Positions 1 through 27,965 of a stretch of DNA of 35,363 nucleotides are shown in pieces. This DNA comes from a virus, in IMG/VR virus record IMGVR_UViG_3300037468_000372, positions 1-35,363 of that record; one strand, given 5' to 3'. The notes beneath the pieces were generated by a model. It was not told the DNA's origin and did not search any database. It saw only the letters and a program-made list of their open reading frames with translations. The translations under genes were made by a program, and so were the position numbers. The first letter of the stretch is position 1. Every line of letters starts with the position of its first letter.

Positions 1-220
1 GTTTTGCAACCAATGATTTATATGAATTTGGTATATTATCTTCGAAATCATCTTCACCAGAAGCTTGCCCTGCTGTTGTTTGTTTTCCAGCAACATTAAC
101 TTTAGTACTTTTTCTAAGCTTATGTTGTTTATTATAATTGTTAAAAGCGTCTTGAGATTTAAAATCTAATTCTGTTATAATCATTTCTCTAATAATTTGT
201 CTTAATTCAGATTTTTTCAT
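1..220 (-). CDS. Leader-bearing small phage protein, 3' end cut by window edge
   Basis: Partial gene: the start is inside the window and the frame is still open at base 1. Translation begins MKKSELRQIIREMIITE and runs about 73 residues into a polar, charged, low-complexity stretch containing VNVAGKQTTAGQASGEDDFED. The ATG at 218-220 has a perfect AGGAGG six to seven bases upstream, and that site overlaps the TAG stop of the preceding gene, which suggests coupled translation. The first 17 residues match the leader found on several other small genes here and end in I-T-E, the T4 gp21-type cleavage consensus. Function of the body is unknown. I infer a protein targeted to the prohead interior. 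Confidence 0.75.
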   Translation of the reverse strand, partial: MKKSELRQIIREMIITELDFKSQDAFNNYNKQHKLRKSTKVNVAGKQTTAGQASGEDDFEDNIPNSYKSLVAK

Positions 221-232
221 TTTTAACTCCTC

Positions 233-2074
233 CTATGATATATTTCTTTTTGCTTTATTAATTCTATCTTTATTTGCTTTATCAGCATTCTTAAAATCTT
301 CAAAATTACTTTTTAAATAATCAAAAGAAGTATTCTGTCCAGCTGGATTATATAAATCATCTTCGACCATTGGTTTACCACTAGCATCTAAACTTGCAAT
401 TTCAAAATATCTTCCTAACACGTGCTTCAAATCTTCATATAAAGAAGTTAATCTTTGTTGCACTGATTTAGCTTCAGTTGCAGTCTTAGTAATATCTTCA
501 CTAACCTTTCTTACTTCTTTCATATTTCTGTTGATTGTCACTTTATCAAACCATCCTTCGGTTTCTTCTAATGCCACTCTCTCTGCCATTTTACCGAGCC
601 CAGAAAGTTTTTCTGCCAACTCAACTAAATCAACAGGTGAATATAATTTTTGTCCATATTCTTCTAATTTTTTAATATCTTCTAAAAAGCATTTTTTGTC
701 TTCAAGTGTTAATTGTGGTATTTCTTCTTCTTCTTTAACACTATCTTTGTTTATAAGGTTTCCCATTTTCATGTTATTCATGTTATTCTCTGCTTCTTTA
801 ATTTCATTTTTAAATTTGTTCTTTGTTAAAAAATCTTTTTTATTTATTATATAAATGTGTTTTAATGAATCTTCAATAGTAATTTTATCTCCATCAACTT
901 TTTTAACAACACCTTCAACTTCTGTAAAATCAACACCTCGTCCGGGTGCAGTTGCCCTTATTGGTTGAAAAGCTTTAAATTTTTTTCCAATCAAATTGTC
1001 TGTTGCTTCTTTAACGTGTTGTGGTAATCCACTGTGCTTTGTTTTAGCAAATTTTTTCAATTCTTTTGTGCCCATTTTAGCCATTTGTTTTGATGCCCCC
1101 TTTAATTTTGATTTAGGAATTTCGCCCTTTTTTGCTGCATAGGCAATTCCTGCAGCCTGCTGTTGAGCTTTTGAAACTGCCTTTTCATGTATATTCAATT
1201 TTTTCTTAATAATTTCTTTAGCTTTCTTTTTGCCAGCCAAACCTCTTCCTGCATAAATTGTAGCACCCGTATTTTGATGATAAACTTCATAATGATCATC
1301 ACTTTTATCATATGCTATAGTGTAAGGATAAAATTTATGAAAATCTTCTTTAGCTTCTTTAACTTGTCCCACACCCAATTTCTTAGCAAGTTCTAATGCA
1401 TCTTTTTCATCAACAATTCCTGAAGAAACTAATTCAGAGTAATATTTTGGATTTTCAGTTAAATGATCTAATGCAATTTCTTCTGCTTTTTCATCTGAAT
1501 CTGTATGCTCTCTTTCAACTTTTTTACCAACTGCAAGTTCATTAGCATCTACAGACTTTGGATCTGTTTTATCACCTTTGCCACCTGGCACATTGTCAAT
1601 TAGTTCTATAAGTTTAATTTTTCTCATTTTTTCTTCCTTAAATGTAGCATTTGGATTTTTAGCATATTGTTTTGCCGCATCCCACCTCATCCATTTTTGT
1701 CCCTTGCCGGCTATTTTTTGGTTAAGATATTTTATAGTATCAGCTCTTTGCATTTGCTTGTCTAAAATTCTTTTATTCTCAGTATCTACTAAATAAAAAT
1801 TAACATATACTATTTTTCCATGCATGTCATAATGCTTTCTTGGTGGCTTGTATGTTCCATATTCAGTTAAAGCTTTACGATTCATTCCGTCAGCTTTTCT
1901 TAATGCATCTTCATAATTGCCCTTAAGAACAGCAGCCAAAAATCCACCAGCCCATTGCAATTCTTTTTTAACTTGTGCATCAAAGTTGCTTGAACTTAAA
2001 ATTCTTTTAGCAACATCTGCAATAGCTTTATTCTTAGAGTATTGCAATTTTTCAAGCATATCTCTAACATCCAT
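233..2074 (-). CDS. 613-residue multidomain head-region protein with DUF5661-like and DUF3008-like segments
   Basis: Apparent order: an N-terminal domain (about 1-165) that I do not recognise; a segment at about 176-216 (GKKVEREHT, then EIALDHLTENPKYYSEL) resembling DUF5661; a short region at about 240-298; a segment at 301-355 (SKAQQQAAGIAYAAKKGE to KTKHSGLP) resembling DUF3008; a KOW/SH3-like beta segment at about 360-417; and a charged, helical, probably coiled-coil C-terminus (about 440-613). Three linkers carry [VI]-K-E-A (238-241, 354-357, 425-428), each near a domain boundary and close to the gp21-type consensus. The start has AGGAGTGTAAAATG. It lies between the prohead protease region and the left edge, where scaffold and capsid genes are expected. 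The family names are from memory and unsearched. It may be a core protein processed in the prohead. Confidence 0.8.
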   Translation of the reverse strand: MDVRDMLEKLQYSKNKAIADVAKRILSSSNFDAQVKKELQWAGGFLAAVLKGNYEDALRKADGMNRKALTEYGTYKPPRKHYDMHGKIVYVNFYLVDTENKRILDKQMQRADTIKYLNQKIAGKGQKWMRWDAAKQYAKNPNATFKEEKMRKIKLIELIDNVPGGKGDKTDPKSVDANELAVGKKVEREHTDSDEKAEEIALDHLTENPKYYSELVSSGIVDEKDALELAKKLGVGQVKEAKEDFHKFYPYTIAYDKSDDHYEVYHQNTGATIYAGRGLAGKKKAKEIIKKKLNIHEKAVSKAQQQAAGIAYAAKKGEIPKSKLKGASKQMAKMGTKELKKFAKTKHSGLPQHVKEATDNLIGKKFKAFQPIRATAPGRGVDFTEVEGVVKKVDGDKITIEDSLKHIYIINKKDFLTKNKFKNEIKEAENNMNNMKMGNLINKDSVKEEEEIPQLTLEDKKCFLEDIKKLEEYGQKLYSPVDLVELAEKLSGLGKMAERVALEETEGWFDKVTINRNMKEVRKVSEDITKTATEAKSVQQRLTSLYEDLKHVLGRYFEIASLDASGKPMVEDDLYNPAGQNTSFDYLKSNFEDFKNADKANKDRINKAKRNIS

Positions 2075-3766: not shown

Positions 3767-4390
3767 CTATTCTCCAAGTTCAATTAGAATATCACGAATC
3801 AGACACTCAACACGATTTCTACAAGCAATTATTGGATTTCCTCCCACAGATTCTGTCAATTGTTTTGGTGTCATAAATGCTCCGTGTGTTGATGGATTAG
3901 AAACAAAATCCCAGCCGACTAATTCAAAATCATCCTCAACTTGTAATGTATTATCATCTTCATTAAGTTCAGAAACACTTCCAAGACCTCTTGAAGAAAT
4001 TCCCAGTCTTACATCTGCCAAAAATAATTCTTTTAATATTTTTCCTGATGGAGTATTTAATACTTCAATTGTTCCTACTATATCATCACCATCCCAGTGT
4101 GCATCTAATATAATGTGTGAAACATTTTGTAAATTAACAATAGCACTATCTGGATGATCAAGTTCACCCATTGAGCGCCTTTCTTTTATTAGAGTTTGAT
4201 ATTTTTTTAATTCTCTATCAAGGATGTTTCTTGGATATATTCTCCCATTTTGATTTTTTGCATTTGCTCTTTGCAAAATACCTGAAACAATTAATCTACC
4301 ACTGTTTTTTCCCAAACTCTCCAATATTACTTTTGGGGATATTATAAATGGCAGATAATCTGCTGGACTTAATAGTGGTTTTTTATTCAT
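3767..4390 (-). CDS. 21: Prohead core protease, T4 gp21-like
   Basis: Serine protease that matures the T4-type prohead by cutting scaffold, capsid and internal proteins after [IL]-x-E. At 207 residues it is close to T4 gp21. Recognisable motifs are NGRIYPRNIL at 48-57, the histidine motif GELDHPD with H79, the serine motif GISSRGLGSV with S132/S133, and ELVGWDFVSNPS near 156-167. T4 gp21 uses equivalent His and Ser residues. The ribosome binding site is modest (AAGAGAAAATCAAATG). It sits among many genes whose leaders end in its presumed cleavage consensus, so it is the likely processing enzyme for that set. Confidence 0.93.
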   Translation of the reverse strand: MNKKPLLSPADYLPFIISPKVILESLGKNSGRLIVSGILQRANAKNQNGRIYPRNILDRELKKYQTLIKERRSMGELDHPDSAIVNLQNVSHIILDAHWDGDDIVGTIEVLNTPSGKILKELFLADVRLGISSRGLGSVSELNEDDNTLQVEDDFELVGWDFVSNPSTHGAFMTPKQLTESVGGNPIIACRNRVECLIRDILIELGE

Positions 4391-6676: not shown

Positions 6677-7489
6677 CTATTTTATTGCCTGCATTTTATT
6701 GGCAATACGGTTCATCTGCTCACCAATTTTTCTCAATGCTTGATGTGATCTTTTATACATATCAACAGATTTAATATTGTTTTCCTCTTTAAATACTCTT
6801 GACTTATCAACTATTTTTTCAACTTCTTTTAATGATTCTCTTACAGTCCTAATAGCCTGTGCCATTTTTTGTTTTGGTGAAAAATTGTCATCTTTGAAGT
6901 CGACTTGTTCATCAATATTATCATATTTTACTACTGCATGTTTATCTACTCTAACTGTTTCACCATTTGCCTTTTTTATTTCATAATAATTATTTTTTGA
7001 ATTTTTAATTATGCCGCTTGATTTAACAAAAAAACCTCTTTCATTTGTATCATCAAAACGAACTTTGTCCCCATTTTTAAATGATATTGTCTCATCTATT
7101 CTTTTAGTTTTTGTCCAATCTGGCATTGCATTTGCTGCAGGTGATCCTTCATAATCTTGACCCGGTTTGGTAAAAGCTTTTGGAGTCATATATGGGCCTG
7201 CATTTCCAGATGCTGAAGTCTCAACTATATTTGTGTCACCAACTTTAATTTCTCCCCACTGCTGACCTGCAAAATTTGAATAGGTATATTTAATCACTCC
7301 GTTCTTAATGCTTTCAACTTTACCATTTATAGTTTCTTTCTTTTTATCAAAATTATTATATTTTTTAATTCTGATTTTGTCGCCAGGTTTATATACTTTT
7401 GCTTCAGGTTTAAATGCTTCCTGCTTCAATTCACCAACAATAATTTTTTTTATTATCTCTCTTAATTTTTTTTCATTCATATTAGCCAT
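6677..7489 (-). CDS. Leader-bearing 270-residue protein with two KOW/SH3-like segments
   Basis: The N-terminus MANMNEKKLREIIKKIIVGE is a leader variant, with cleavage possible after I-V-G-E or at the following L-K-Q-E|A. Residues about 31-87 (YKPGDKIRIKKYN to WGEIKVGD) and about 135-190 (FKNGDKVRF to VRVDKHAVVKYD) look like small beta-barrel KOW/SH3-like units. Between them is a flexible linker, SASGNAGPYMTPKAFTKPG, of a type common in phage head proteins. Residues about 200-270 are helical and resemble the neighbouring small helical proteins. Its start overlaps the previous gene by 8 bases. It may be a core or internal protein. Confidence 0.72.
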   Translation of the reverse strand: MANMNEKKLREIIKKIIVGELKQEAFKPEAKVYKPGDKIRIKKYNNFDKKKETINGKVESIKNGVIKYTYSNFAGQQWGEIKVGDTNIVETSASGNAGPYMTPKAFTKPGQDYEGSPAANAMPDWTKTKRIDETISFKNGDKVRFDDTNERGFFVKSSGIIKNSKNNYYEIKKANGETVRVDKHAVVKYDNIDEQVDFKDDNFSPKQKMAQAIRTVRESLKEVEKIVDKSRVFKEENNIKSVDMYKRSHQALRKIGEQMNRIANKMQAIK

Positions 7490-10310: not shown

Positions 10311-10817
10311 TTATTTAAATTCATTAAACATATTCAATATTTTGGGATCAATAGATATGTTATTATCTAATAAATATTGAATTGCCCCCAAATATTTAGT
10401 TTTTTGTTTCTCTGTAGGGTTGTCTTTCAGATTTTCTAACATATCTACAAGCTTCACTGTCAATGCAGTTTTGCTAATTTTTGCCAATCTTAATACATAT
10501 TGATTATAGTCTGTCGATTTGTCATGAGAAAGCAATAAAATGAAATTCATTACAACTTTTCCAAATCCACTAACTATTGCATTTTGAACATATTGTTTAT
10601 TTGGAGTATCTTCATAGGTGTCATGCAACAATGCAACTATTTGAACATCTTTTGACAAGCCCAATGATTTTGCTTTTTGGTAAACTCGATAAGGATGAAC
10701 AAAATATGGCTGTCCACTCTTGCGTTTTTGTCCAGCATGAGTAATCATAGCAATATCTTGAGCTTTATCTATAGCTGAAAGTTCGTTTATTATTTTTCTT
10801 GTTATTCTATTAATCAT
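10311..10817 (-). CDS. SpoT/MESH1-like HD hydrolase, putative small alarmone hydrolase
   Basis: 168 residues with the full metal-binding pattern of the RelA/SpoT hydrolase HD fold: H27 in HAGQKRKSGQPYF, H41 in VHPYRV, H65-D66 with E69-D70 in LLHDTYEDT, and D125/N129 in KLVDMLENL. Stand-alone members (MESH1, small alarmone hydrolases) remove pyrophosphate from (p)ppGpp. There is no synthetase domain. The N-terminus MINRITRKIINE ends I-N-E and fits the leader rule, so the enzyme may be packaged and delivered. The start overlaps the terminase stop (TAATG). Finding it between terminase and portal is unusual. Substrate specificity is not proven; it could be another nucleotide pyrophosphohydrolase. 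Confidence 0.85.
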   Translation of the reverse strand: MINRITRKIINELSAIDKAQDIAMITHAGQKRKSGQPYFVHPYRVYQKAKSLGLSKDVQIVALLHDTYEDTPNKQYVQNAIVSGFGKVVMNFILLLSHDKSTDYNQYVLRLAKISKTALTVKLVDMLENLKDNPTEKQKTKYLGAIQYLLDNNISIDPKILNMFNEFK

Positions 10818-14377: not shown

Positions 14378-14779
14378 TTAAATTTTATCTGCAATTTTAT
14401 CAAATAATTGTAACGCTGCCATTTTTGAATAACCAATTTTAATACATTCTATTTCATCTTTATTTAAATTTTTATATGCCAACCAACGATGATGTCCGTC
14501 AACAATATAATTGTCATTAGATATAAATATAGGATTCATCTTGTTTCCTGATTTAATTGCAATACTTATTCTTTCAATTTTGTCTGCATTGACATTATTT
14601 TGTATAGGATTCAAATCATTAACTTTGTTCACTTCATATTTGAATGGAACTCCATATTTTTTAAATGTATCAATAGCTGTAGGAATGTCATTTCCTTTTA
14701 TTTGTGGCATATCTGATCTATTAATAATTTCTATTAATATTTCTTCTGTAATATATGTTGATAAATCTTTTATACTCAT
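14378..14779 (-). CDS. ParB/Srx-like domain protein with leader-like N-terminus
   Basis: 133 residues. The ParB N-terminal (sulfiredoxin-like) signature is seen in NPIQNNVNADKIERI, NPIFISNDNYIVDGHHRW and LAYKNL, the DGHHRWLA box corresponding to the GxHRxxA motif. This fold occurs in nucleases and in CTP-binding ParB proteins, and many phages encode stand-alone versions of unknown role. The N-terminus MSIKDLSTYITEE ends I-T-E|E and resembles the capsid leaders, so it may be packaged. The ribosome binding site is weak (AGAAGCATAATATG). There is no ParB DNA-binding domain. Activity is not predictable from sequence. Confidence 0.8.
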   Translation of the reverse strand: MSIKDLSTYITEEILIEIINRSDMPQIKGNDIPTAIDTFKKYGVPFKYEVNKVNDLNPIQNNVNADKIERISIAIKSGNKMNPIFISNDNYIVDGHHRWLAYKNLNKDEIECIKIGYSKMAALQLFDKIADKI

Positions 14780-26967: not shown

Positions 26968-27567
26968 CTAAAACTCTTTTGCATCTTTAAAAGTGTCTAA
27001 TGATTTACTATAATTTTTTCCAATTCCAATATCTGAAAAACCAAATTTTTTAATAAAGTCTTTTATTGACATCACAGTTGGAATTTCTGCTTTTTCATCA
27101 AATTGTCTATGAGAAAAATCTATAACTTTATCTCCTACTATATTAGCAACGTGAATATCAATTTGTCCCCACTTTTCATCTGGATTTGCTCCTGAAATAA
27201 CTTTAGCTCGTGGATTGTATTTTGTATATAAATCTGCTATAACATCACAAGCTCCAGCTGCTCCTTCTTTTGTAGTTATATTTAAATCTATATCTGTTTC
27301 GTCTCTTAGCTTTTTTATAAGTTTAGAATTTTTAAATGAATTAATAAAATCCTTTGCAGATAATTCTTTTGCAGATAATTTAGTTGTTGATTTTTCAGTA
27401 TTTTTTTGATTTATTATTTCTTTTTCAGCTGCAGTTCCAATAAAATATTGCCCGCCCCTTGGGCCTTTTTGCATTTTCTTTCCTTTTGGAATATCTTGTC
27501 CTTGCTTTACATAAATTTTATGTGTATTAGATTCTTTTTTTATTAAATCTTTTAATTTTAATTTCAT
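26968..27567 (-). CDS. Leader-bearing putative papain-like cysteine peptidase/transglutaminase-fold enzyme
   Basis: 199 residues. A class B leader variant, MKLKLKDLIKKE, is followed by KIYVKQGQDIPKGKKMQKGP and RGGQYF, a short module seen at the front of other phage proteins. After a polar linker (about 50-90) comes a globular domain with GAAGACDVIADLY (C107), WGQIDIHVANIVGDKVIDFS (H139, D150) and HRQFD. The order Cys at a helix start, His on a strand, Asp after the next strand fits papain-like folds used by peptidases, deamidases and transglutaminases. The catalytic role is inferred. The ATGA overlap with the gene before it suggests coupling. With the leader, it could be an ejected effector or an internal protein-modifying enzyme. 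Confidence 0.72.
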   Translation of the reverse strand: MKLKLKDLIKKESNTHKIYVKQGQDIPKGKKMQKGPRGGQYFIGTAAEKEIINQKNTEKSTTKLSAKELSAKDFINSFKNSKLIKKLRDETDIDLNITTKEGAAGACDVIADLYTKYNPRAKVISGANPDEKWGQIDIHVANIVGDKVIDFSHRQFDEKAEIPTVMSIKDFIKKFGFSDIGIGKNYSKSLDTFKDAKEF

Positions 27568-27965
27568 AGTTTTTTAAAATAAGTTTGTATATCAAAATTA
27601 ATGTGTAATTGTTTTGCTCTAATTTCATAAGCTCGCAATGAAACATCAGTGATAATGTTATTGTAATTTTTAGATTTTAATTGTTTAAGTCCTTGCTTAA
27701 TATCTTCTAAAGTTTTACAGTTTGCTGGGCTGTATTGTGTATCTTCTTTTATTAAGTTTTTTAATTTCATTCTACTTTCTCTTAATTCTACAGTTTCATT
27801 TGGGCTTATCTCTTTTCTATTAACTTTAGTGAATCCTCTAGCCTTAAAAGCATTTGTTTTTGTGCTTGAATATAGTCCTATTGCATCTCTTTCAACATAT
27901 TCAACACGCCAAATTTTATCTTTGTATTTAATTATTTGACCCTTTTTTAAATCTTTAGCTTTCAT
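27564..27965 (-). CDS. 133-residue protein with a capsid-type leader buried at residue 66
   Basis: Residues 1-65 form a small KOW/SH3-like unit, starting MKAKDLKKGQIIKYKDKIWR and with VEYVERDAIGLYS. At residue 66 there is an internal ATG (27768-27770) reading MKLKNLIKEDTQYS, an intact class B leader encoded by the 32-base repeat, followed by a helical domain (about 80-133). AGAGAAAGTAGA before the internal ATG is a possible ribosome binding site. Either two genes have fused in frame, or a nested 68-residue protein is made from the internal start. The start overlaps the upstream gene (TAATG). No family is recognised. Confidence 0.75.
   Translation of the reverse strand: MKAKDLKKGQIIKYKDKIWRVEYVERDAIGLYSSTKTNAFKARGFTKVNRKEISPNETVELRESRMKLKNLIKEDTQYSPANCKTLEDIKQGLKQLKSKNYNNIITDVSLRAYEIRAKQLHINFDIQTYFKKL
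27740..27771. repeat. Exact 32-base direct repeat, copy B (leader inside the 133-residue gene)
   Basis: Identical to 26927-26958. It encodes the MKLKNLIKED leader in the middle of the 133-residue reading frame. Confidence 0.9.

Follow-up and report, generated by a model that had tools for sequence, protein, structure and literature searches.

The 613-residue product (P0001) of an open reading frame in an uncultured T4-like bacterial virus is probably a head-core polyprotein, which would be cut by the cognate gp21-type prohead protease to release packaged cargo. The frame lies on the minus strand of a 35-kb IMG/VR fragment, here called the window (35,363 nucleotides, analysed at full length). 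Domain borders, the placement of the cleavage motif, the gain, loss and exchange of modules at that motif, and a protease homologous to T4 gp21 are all seen in the sequence. The case rests on where the candidate sites are placed and on how the relatives behave, not on the number of sites.

Modules, candidate sites and the cognate protease

The first-pass annotation had reported three [VI]-K-E-A sequences in P0001. A motif scan of all 613 residues returned them at exactly the positions claimed, with V-K-E-A at residues 238–241 and 354–357 (sites 1 and 2) and I-K-E-A at 425–428 (site 3) (Table 1). They are the sole [ILVMF]-x-E-[AGS] matches; the remaining [ILV]xE matches are followed by residues other than A, G or S, and two of these, IHE↓K (295–297) and SVKE↓E (445–448), also lie at module borders. 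Compared with composition shuffles, the generic [ILV]xE[AGS] count is not significant (3 versus 1.9 expected, P = 0.29), and [VI]KEA, a motif chosen post hoc, occurs 3 times versus 0.08 expected (P = 1.5e-4). Because the generic count is within chance, site number in P0001 alone is weak evidence.

The hydrophobic-x-E sequence before each putative cut is common to the capsid propeptide sites inferred for relatives, which read QL[IVL]xE↓[ASN] and carry V at P3 in 5 of 23 cases. Valine at P3, as found at two of the KEA sites, is therefore ordinary for the clade, and the earlier description of the V variants as mere near-matches is no longer appropriate.

Table 1 Coordinates of the features discussed in the text (positions in the window; ↓, putative cut)
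Feature	Residues	Position	Strand	Basis or remark
Putative head-core polyprotein precursor P0001, 613 aa	1–613	233..2074	-	Stop codon included; ORF, Pfam, motif scan
N-terminal extension	1–149	1628..2074	-	Absent from ortholog L089; alignment
Possible internal start		1625..1639	-	SD-like AAGGAAG (1633–1639), then ATG of Met150 (1625–1627)
Leader-like KLIE↓LID, then DUF5661 module	150–240	1355..1627	-	Pfam, alignment
Site 1, V-K-E↓A	238–241	1352..1363	-	pLDDT < 50; L089 counterpart NIKE↓V
Inserted module	241–297	1184..1354	-	Predicted three strands and helix; not in L089
NIHE↓, end of inserted module		1184–1192	-	
DUF3008 module	298–356	1007..1183	-	Pfam
Site 2, V-K-E↓A	354–357	1004..1015	-	Kept in L089
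KOW/SH3-like barrel module	357–427	794..1006	-	Weak assignment; Pfam E 0.07, Foldseek
Site 3, I-K-E↓A	425–428	791..802	-	Not conserved in L089
Additional candidate site, S-V-K-E↓E	445–448	731..742	-	QVKE↓E in L089
Conserved helical core-protein domain	449–613	236..730	-	Own gene in Mel-JY01, L006, L170 and many relatives
Core protein, cut by window end		2..220	-	Exchangeable leader MKKSELRQIIREMIITE↓LDFKSQ..
Cognate gp21-type prohead protease		3767..4390	-	Catalytic His79 (GELDHP), Ser132/133 (GISSRG)
270-aa head-core protein		6677..7489	-	Same design as P0001
Cargo slot 1 of 270-aa protein	21–90	7220..7429	-	17% identical to L169 counterpart; flanks 81–84%
Cargo slot 2 of 270-aa protein	134–194	6908..7090	-	23% identical to L169 counterpart; flanks 84–90%

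Two of the segments named at first pass are above the Pfam gathering thresholds: DUF5661 (PF18905; residues 171–215, E = 8e-9, 36.2 versus 27 bits) and DUF3008 (PF11450; residues 299–354, E = 8.5e-20, 71.1 versus 24 bits). The third, KOW-like, falls below the cut-off, and the Tudor and SH3-barrel matches found for this module by Foldseek against the PDB are not significant. Pfam gives no other domain above cut-off in P0001, and none of an enzyme or peptidase. Residues 1–149 have no match in Pfam, PHROGs or phage records.

The AlphaFold model of P0001, based on an alignment of 21 sequences (pTM 0.33), features confident folds at residues 251–290, 301–340, 361–410 and 451–565. Segments with pLDDT below 50, which in itself is no proof of a linker, are found at 234–248, 295–300, 346–359, 417–422 and 429–449, and at other places in the N-terminal part. 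Sites 1 and 2 fall within segments of this kind, and site 3 is placed between two; NIHE↓K and SVKE↓E are likewise found in low-confidence segments, and low confidence contains or flanks every site. The claim that the KEA sites lie near the module limits is borne out by this model, in which none of them is inside a folded domain. As modelled, P0001 has the layout of a polyprotein, with folded modules in one reading frame and motif-bearing, low-confidence linkers between them.

The gene of the presumed processing enzyme lies 1.7 kb upstream of the P0001 gene in the same operon. Its product matches PHROG 207 (head maturation protease, E = 1.6e-47) and the structure of T4 gp21 (PDB 5jbl, E = 5.6e-20), and its two catalytic segments match GELNHPP and GVSSRG of a T4-type phage. 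Judged by these matches, the head operon encodes a T4 gp21 homolog with the catalytic histidine and serine. The gene order (terminase, portal, small genes, gp21-type protease, small genes, P0001) is that of a T4-type head operon, and the scaffold and major capsid genes come next in relatives. The assignment of the P0001 gene to the head-core region is confirmed by this position between the protease gene and, in relatives, the scaffold and capsid genes. We also considered the C-terminal part of P0001 as the gp22 scaffold and rejected this: the acidic gene at the gp22 position is separate and precedes the capsid gene. Long intein-like insertions are present in the prohead protease gene of one relative (L006, 707–2431) and in the terminase gene of another (L170, 32–2575).

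The L089 ortholog and free-standing modules

P0001 was compared with a single ortholog, encoded on contig L089 (3300031539_000582; L169 and L240 are the same contig), whose protease is 91% identical to that of the window. A P0001 query against IMG/VR returned DUF3008 pieces only; the ortholog surfaced only via the DUF5661 alignment and, used as a query itself, had no match except itself. It is 410 residues long, and its identity to P0001 is 87% in the core, 83% in DUF3008, 71% in the leader and DUF5661, and 25% in the KOW region. Residues 241–297 are missing from it. The window has QVKE↓A-(module)-NIHE↓KAVSKAQ, the module being flanked by QVKE↓A and NIHE↓K, and L089 has NIKE↓VAVSKAQ. The ortholog retains sites 1 and 2 (as NIKE↓V and HVKE↓A), and SVKE↓E corresponds to its QVKE↓E. 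This agrees with the polyprotein reading put forward at first pass in that sites 1 and 2 are kept and the absent module lies between [ILV]xE motifs; it disagrees at site 3, which this ortholog does not conserve. Change-points located automatically in this pair are 4–8 residues off the sites, not on them, and one unrelated change is at residue 559.

The start codon of the L089 protein aligns with Met150 of P0001, which is preceded by an SD-like AAGGAAG. The annotated start of P0001, MDVRDMLEKLQ, is not leader-like; the sequence from Met150, MRKIKLIELID, aligns with MKRFKLMELIN, the leader of the L089 protein. Since L089 begins at the equivalent of Met150, residues 1–149 are an addition in P0001; translation may begin at two positions, and this N-terminal stretch may be a separate part or one made from an alternative start.

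Elsewhere the modules occur as genes of their own. The more distantly related L170, whose protease shares 66% identity with the L089 enzyme, encodes DUF5661, DUF3008 and the C-terminal core part in three individual genes that follow the module order of P0001; the first and last have their own leaders. Genes for DUF5661, DUF3008-like and KOW-like proteins adjoin in the same order as in P0001 in the huge phage LR756500, whose DUF5661 protein ends at the position equivalent to site 1. Microcystis phage Mel-JY01 encodes the core domain on its own, after the protease gene, and other relatives (for example L061, L070 and L077) have DUF3008 fused to the core domain. The DUF3008 protein of the cultured T4-like cyanophage S-SCSM1, whose gene does not adjoin the protease gene, is annotated as a virion protein, as is the NMN adenylyltransferase of that phage, which starts MKSFLQFLKE↓AAES. 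The S-SCSM1 virion proteome was measured by mass spectrometry, and the adenylyltransferase is named there (PMC9602691); we read the annotation as meaning that the DUF3008 label rests on peptides.

These free-standing relatives bear on a second reading, in which P0001 is scaffold-like and is chopped by the protease for clearance, as T4 gp22, gp67 and gp68 are, leaving no mature cargo. The location of the gene in the head-core operon and the conserved core domain fit such a role; core proteins of T4 are cleaved into small peptides (PMC9958956), and the propeptides of giant phages receive several cuts (PMC10052503). In P0001, however, the matches lie at module borders only and the folded modules are free of [ILV]xE[AGS]; these modules, small folds of diverse kinds, also occur as free-standing proteins, one of them the S-SCSM1 protein annotated as a virion component. 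We consider wholesale clearance improbable, although the C-terminal core domain may well be cleared by the protease.

Two cyanophage DUF3008 proteins (L242, 3501–3710; L245, 3501–3974) carry leader-like sequences at their C termini (FKEFLEYIE and LKEFLENI), which may act as targeting peptides at that end; T4 Alt, too, is processed at both ends.

Cassette exchange and the motif across the clade

The 270-residue head-core protein of the window is built from a leader ending in IVGE↓, a first cargo slot ending in NIVE↓, a constant block ending in RIDE↓, a second cargo slot ending in NIDE↓ and a constant C-block. Compared with its 267-residue L169 ortholog, the leader is 81%, the middle block 84% and the C-block 90% identical, and the contents of both cargo slots are unrelated (17% and 23%; Table 1). 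Change-points in this pair, located without use of the motif, are at distances of 3, 1, 0 and 1 residues from IVGE↓, NIVE↓, RIDE↓ and NIDE↓, respectively. At the junction before the C-block, family members have E at P1 in 43 of 61 sequences and V, L or I at P3 in 44 of 61, while P2 and the sequence upstream vary. The AlphaFold model of this protein is poor (pLDDT 53) and was not used as evidence. A leader swap is seen in the core protein cut by the window end: it and its L089 relative share a common body from LDFKSQ onwards and have unrelated leaders, MIITE↓ versus YPINE↓ at their ends, the switch falling exactly after ITE↓/INE↓. Over all BLAST breakpoints between the window and the sister contig, 7 of 9 are within 3 residues of [ILV]xE versus 1.8 expected, most of them being leader ends.

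Several other window proteins have leaders or internal leaders. An HD-domain protein at 10311–10817 (minus strand; HD_4, E = 5.5e-9), which resembles small alarmone hydrolases, begins MINRITRKIINE↓LSAIDKAQ, and its L169 relative has a different leader, MNKIKLIQE↓LSAIDKAQ; given this difference, the protein may be packaged and injected. The protein at 27564–27965 (minus strand) has a KOW/EF-P-like N-terminal part, then an entire leader in internal position, RMKLKNLIKED, and then a second domain; the design of L089 1865–2308 is the same, with KOW part, internal leader and a different domain. Leader-like N termini also occur beyond the head-core stretch, at 14378–14779 and 26968–27567 (minus strand), as SIKDLSTYITEE on a ParB-like protein and as KLKLKDLIKKES, which suggests that packaged proteins are encoded elsewhere as well.

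The joints could alternatively be relics of gene fusion: genes of leader-bearing internal proteins would have been joined, the motifs would be leader remnants without a role, and P0001 would work uncut. P0001 segments do occur as separate, leader-led genes in relatives, Met150 retains a start codon and SD-like sequence, and some proteins, such as that at 27564–27965, hold a whole internal leader. Most internal joints, however, keep xx[ILV]xE only and have lost the targeting part of the leader, the reverse of what neutral decay would give; joints recur on either side of inserted modules, and the C-block junction described above conserves P1 and P3 across a divergent family. We judge functionless relics to be unlikely, if less so than clearance of the whole chain.

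Across the clade, [ILV]xE[AGS] is found 381 times in head-core ORFs versus 161 in shuffles (2.4-fold), and 89 times versus 21 expected (4.2-fold) in their first 25 residues; other ORFs, used as controls, give 1.2-fold, and decoys in which D, Q or K replaces E give 1.1–1.2-fold in the head-core ORFs. Of 505 head-core ORFs, 146 start with a leader such as MKKSELRQIIREE, MKLKQLIKE or MKEKQWKELLNEG (28 in shuffles), and clear leaders are present in 8 of the 14 core ORFs near the P0001 gene. Head-core ORFs with at least three well-spaced sites number 23 (5.2 in shuffles), and proteins with an internally repeated xx[ILV]xE tag number 14 versus 0.3 expected, compared with 2 in the controls. Two long putative polyproteins exemplify such repeats: that of L024 (698 residues) contains EGKLTE or EGKLNE five times, and that of L023 (617 residues) contains ESVNE-type tags. 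Neither has a match in phage records at E 1e-5, and a looser search reached cyanophage DUF3008 proteins. In L024 (11066–13162), an identical 18-bp sequence, GAAGGAAAACTTACAGAA, encodes EGKLTE four times as a direct repeat, which could promote gain and loss of modules by recombination.

At breakpoints in head-core proteins, the decoys [ILV]xD, [ILV]xK and [ILV]xQ are not enriched. The breakpoints tested clade-wide are related and non-independent, and the control set also scored for [ILV]xE[AGS], so we take this statistic as supporting evidence only; the control score came largely from terminase DEAAF sites and LxE↓GGAYGH tags. The latter joints lie in proteins upstream of the terminase (in L055, L026, L051, L173, L210 and others, and L007 4681–5946), some of them within long ORFs, and this locus is a possible second polyprotein locus.

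These counts also weigh on the simplest alternative, an ordinary multi-domain protein with K/E-rich linkers, in which the motif would reflect chance and the meeting of domain ends with flexible linkers. The generic motif count of P0001, taken alone, is compatible with it. Against it stand the multi-site and repeated-tag ORFs, far above shuffles in head-core genes and barely so in controls, and the decoys, which show no enrichment at head-core breakpoints. We give this explanation hardly any credence.

Proposed processing and comparison with known systems

Under the polyprotein reading, the C-terminal helical core domain, perhaps together with the Met150 leader, would bring the P0001 chain into the assembling prohead, where the gp21-type protease would cut after the E of [ILV]-x-E at the module borders. 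Cuts are most surely expected at 356/357 and 240/241, probable at 297/298 and 448/449, and less sure at 427/428. DUF5661, the small alpha-beta module, DUF3008 and the KOW/SH3-like module would be freed as separate internal proteins, which would remain associated with the DNA and could be carried into the next host. Packaging, cleavage and injection are what we infer from this arrangement. Clade-wide, the [ILV]xE joints would act as cassette borders, and cargo could therefore be gained, lost and swapped with targeting and release undisturbed. We lean towards the broader view that, in a large T4-like clade, short [ILV]xE tags recognised by the prohead protease serve as universal joints, at which core proteins and long polyproteins gain, lose and swap leaders and cargo and from which several folded cargos per chain are freed within the prohead.

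If this holds, the virion cargo of tailed phages would come from genuine polyproteins and be freed by the head-maturation protease. A simple rule would follow: where a module border of a head-core gene bears [ILV]xE, packaged and probably injected proteins can be predicted, also in uncultured phages and including many proteins with a DUF label or no annotation. DUF3008, DUF5661 and many small orphan modules would become testable as virion-delivered factors, and the joint, as a neutral insertion point, suggests a route by which early-acting host-takeover modules are exchanged. A literature search of partial coverage found no report of a phage polyprotein cut by the prohead protease and no mention of DUF3008 or DUF5661; with such coverage, the absence of reports is no proof of novelty.

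The closest known system is that of the T4 internal proteins. In IPI, IPII, IPIII and Alt, gp21 cleaves after a capsid targeting sequence (PMC9026906, PMC3012670); the leader is 10 residues long, and its positions 8 and 10 determine processing (PMC9026906). The homologous protease, the short N-terminal leader ending in hydrophobic-x-E, the diverse and fast-changing cargo behind conserved leaders, and the location of the genes in or near the head-core operon are common to both. T4 has one cargo per leader and gene; here, in contrast, several modules share a chain that has a site at every joint, and core proteins, too, carry cargo inserts.

In giant phages (phiKZ, 201phi2-1, SPN3US), head proteins are cut by S80-type proteases (PMC10052503, PMC5694885). 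Both systems have a prohead protease that cuts many head proteins after E, at several sites per protein. In these phages the cuts take off N- or C-terminal propeptides and leave one mature fragment, and SPN3US proteins, cut at several sites, lose propeptides only (PMC10052503); release of multi-module cargo is not described in these two giant-phage papers.

Polyvalent proteins of phages and conjugative elements, which their authors liken to RNA-virus polyproteins (Iyer et al. 2017, PMC5512222), resemble the proposed system in that several conflict or take-over domains travel with the DNA in one polypeptide. Their hallmarks are multiple domains of enzymatic or conflict type and, in many cases, a peptidase within the polypeptide; Pfam finds no peptidase or enzyme domain in P0001. 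Polyvalent proteins are large enzymes, some of them freed by a peptidase within the chain, whereas the modules described here are small and their joints fit a separate prohead protease.
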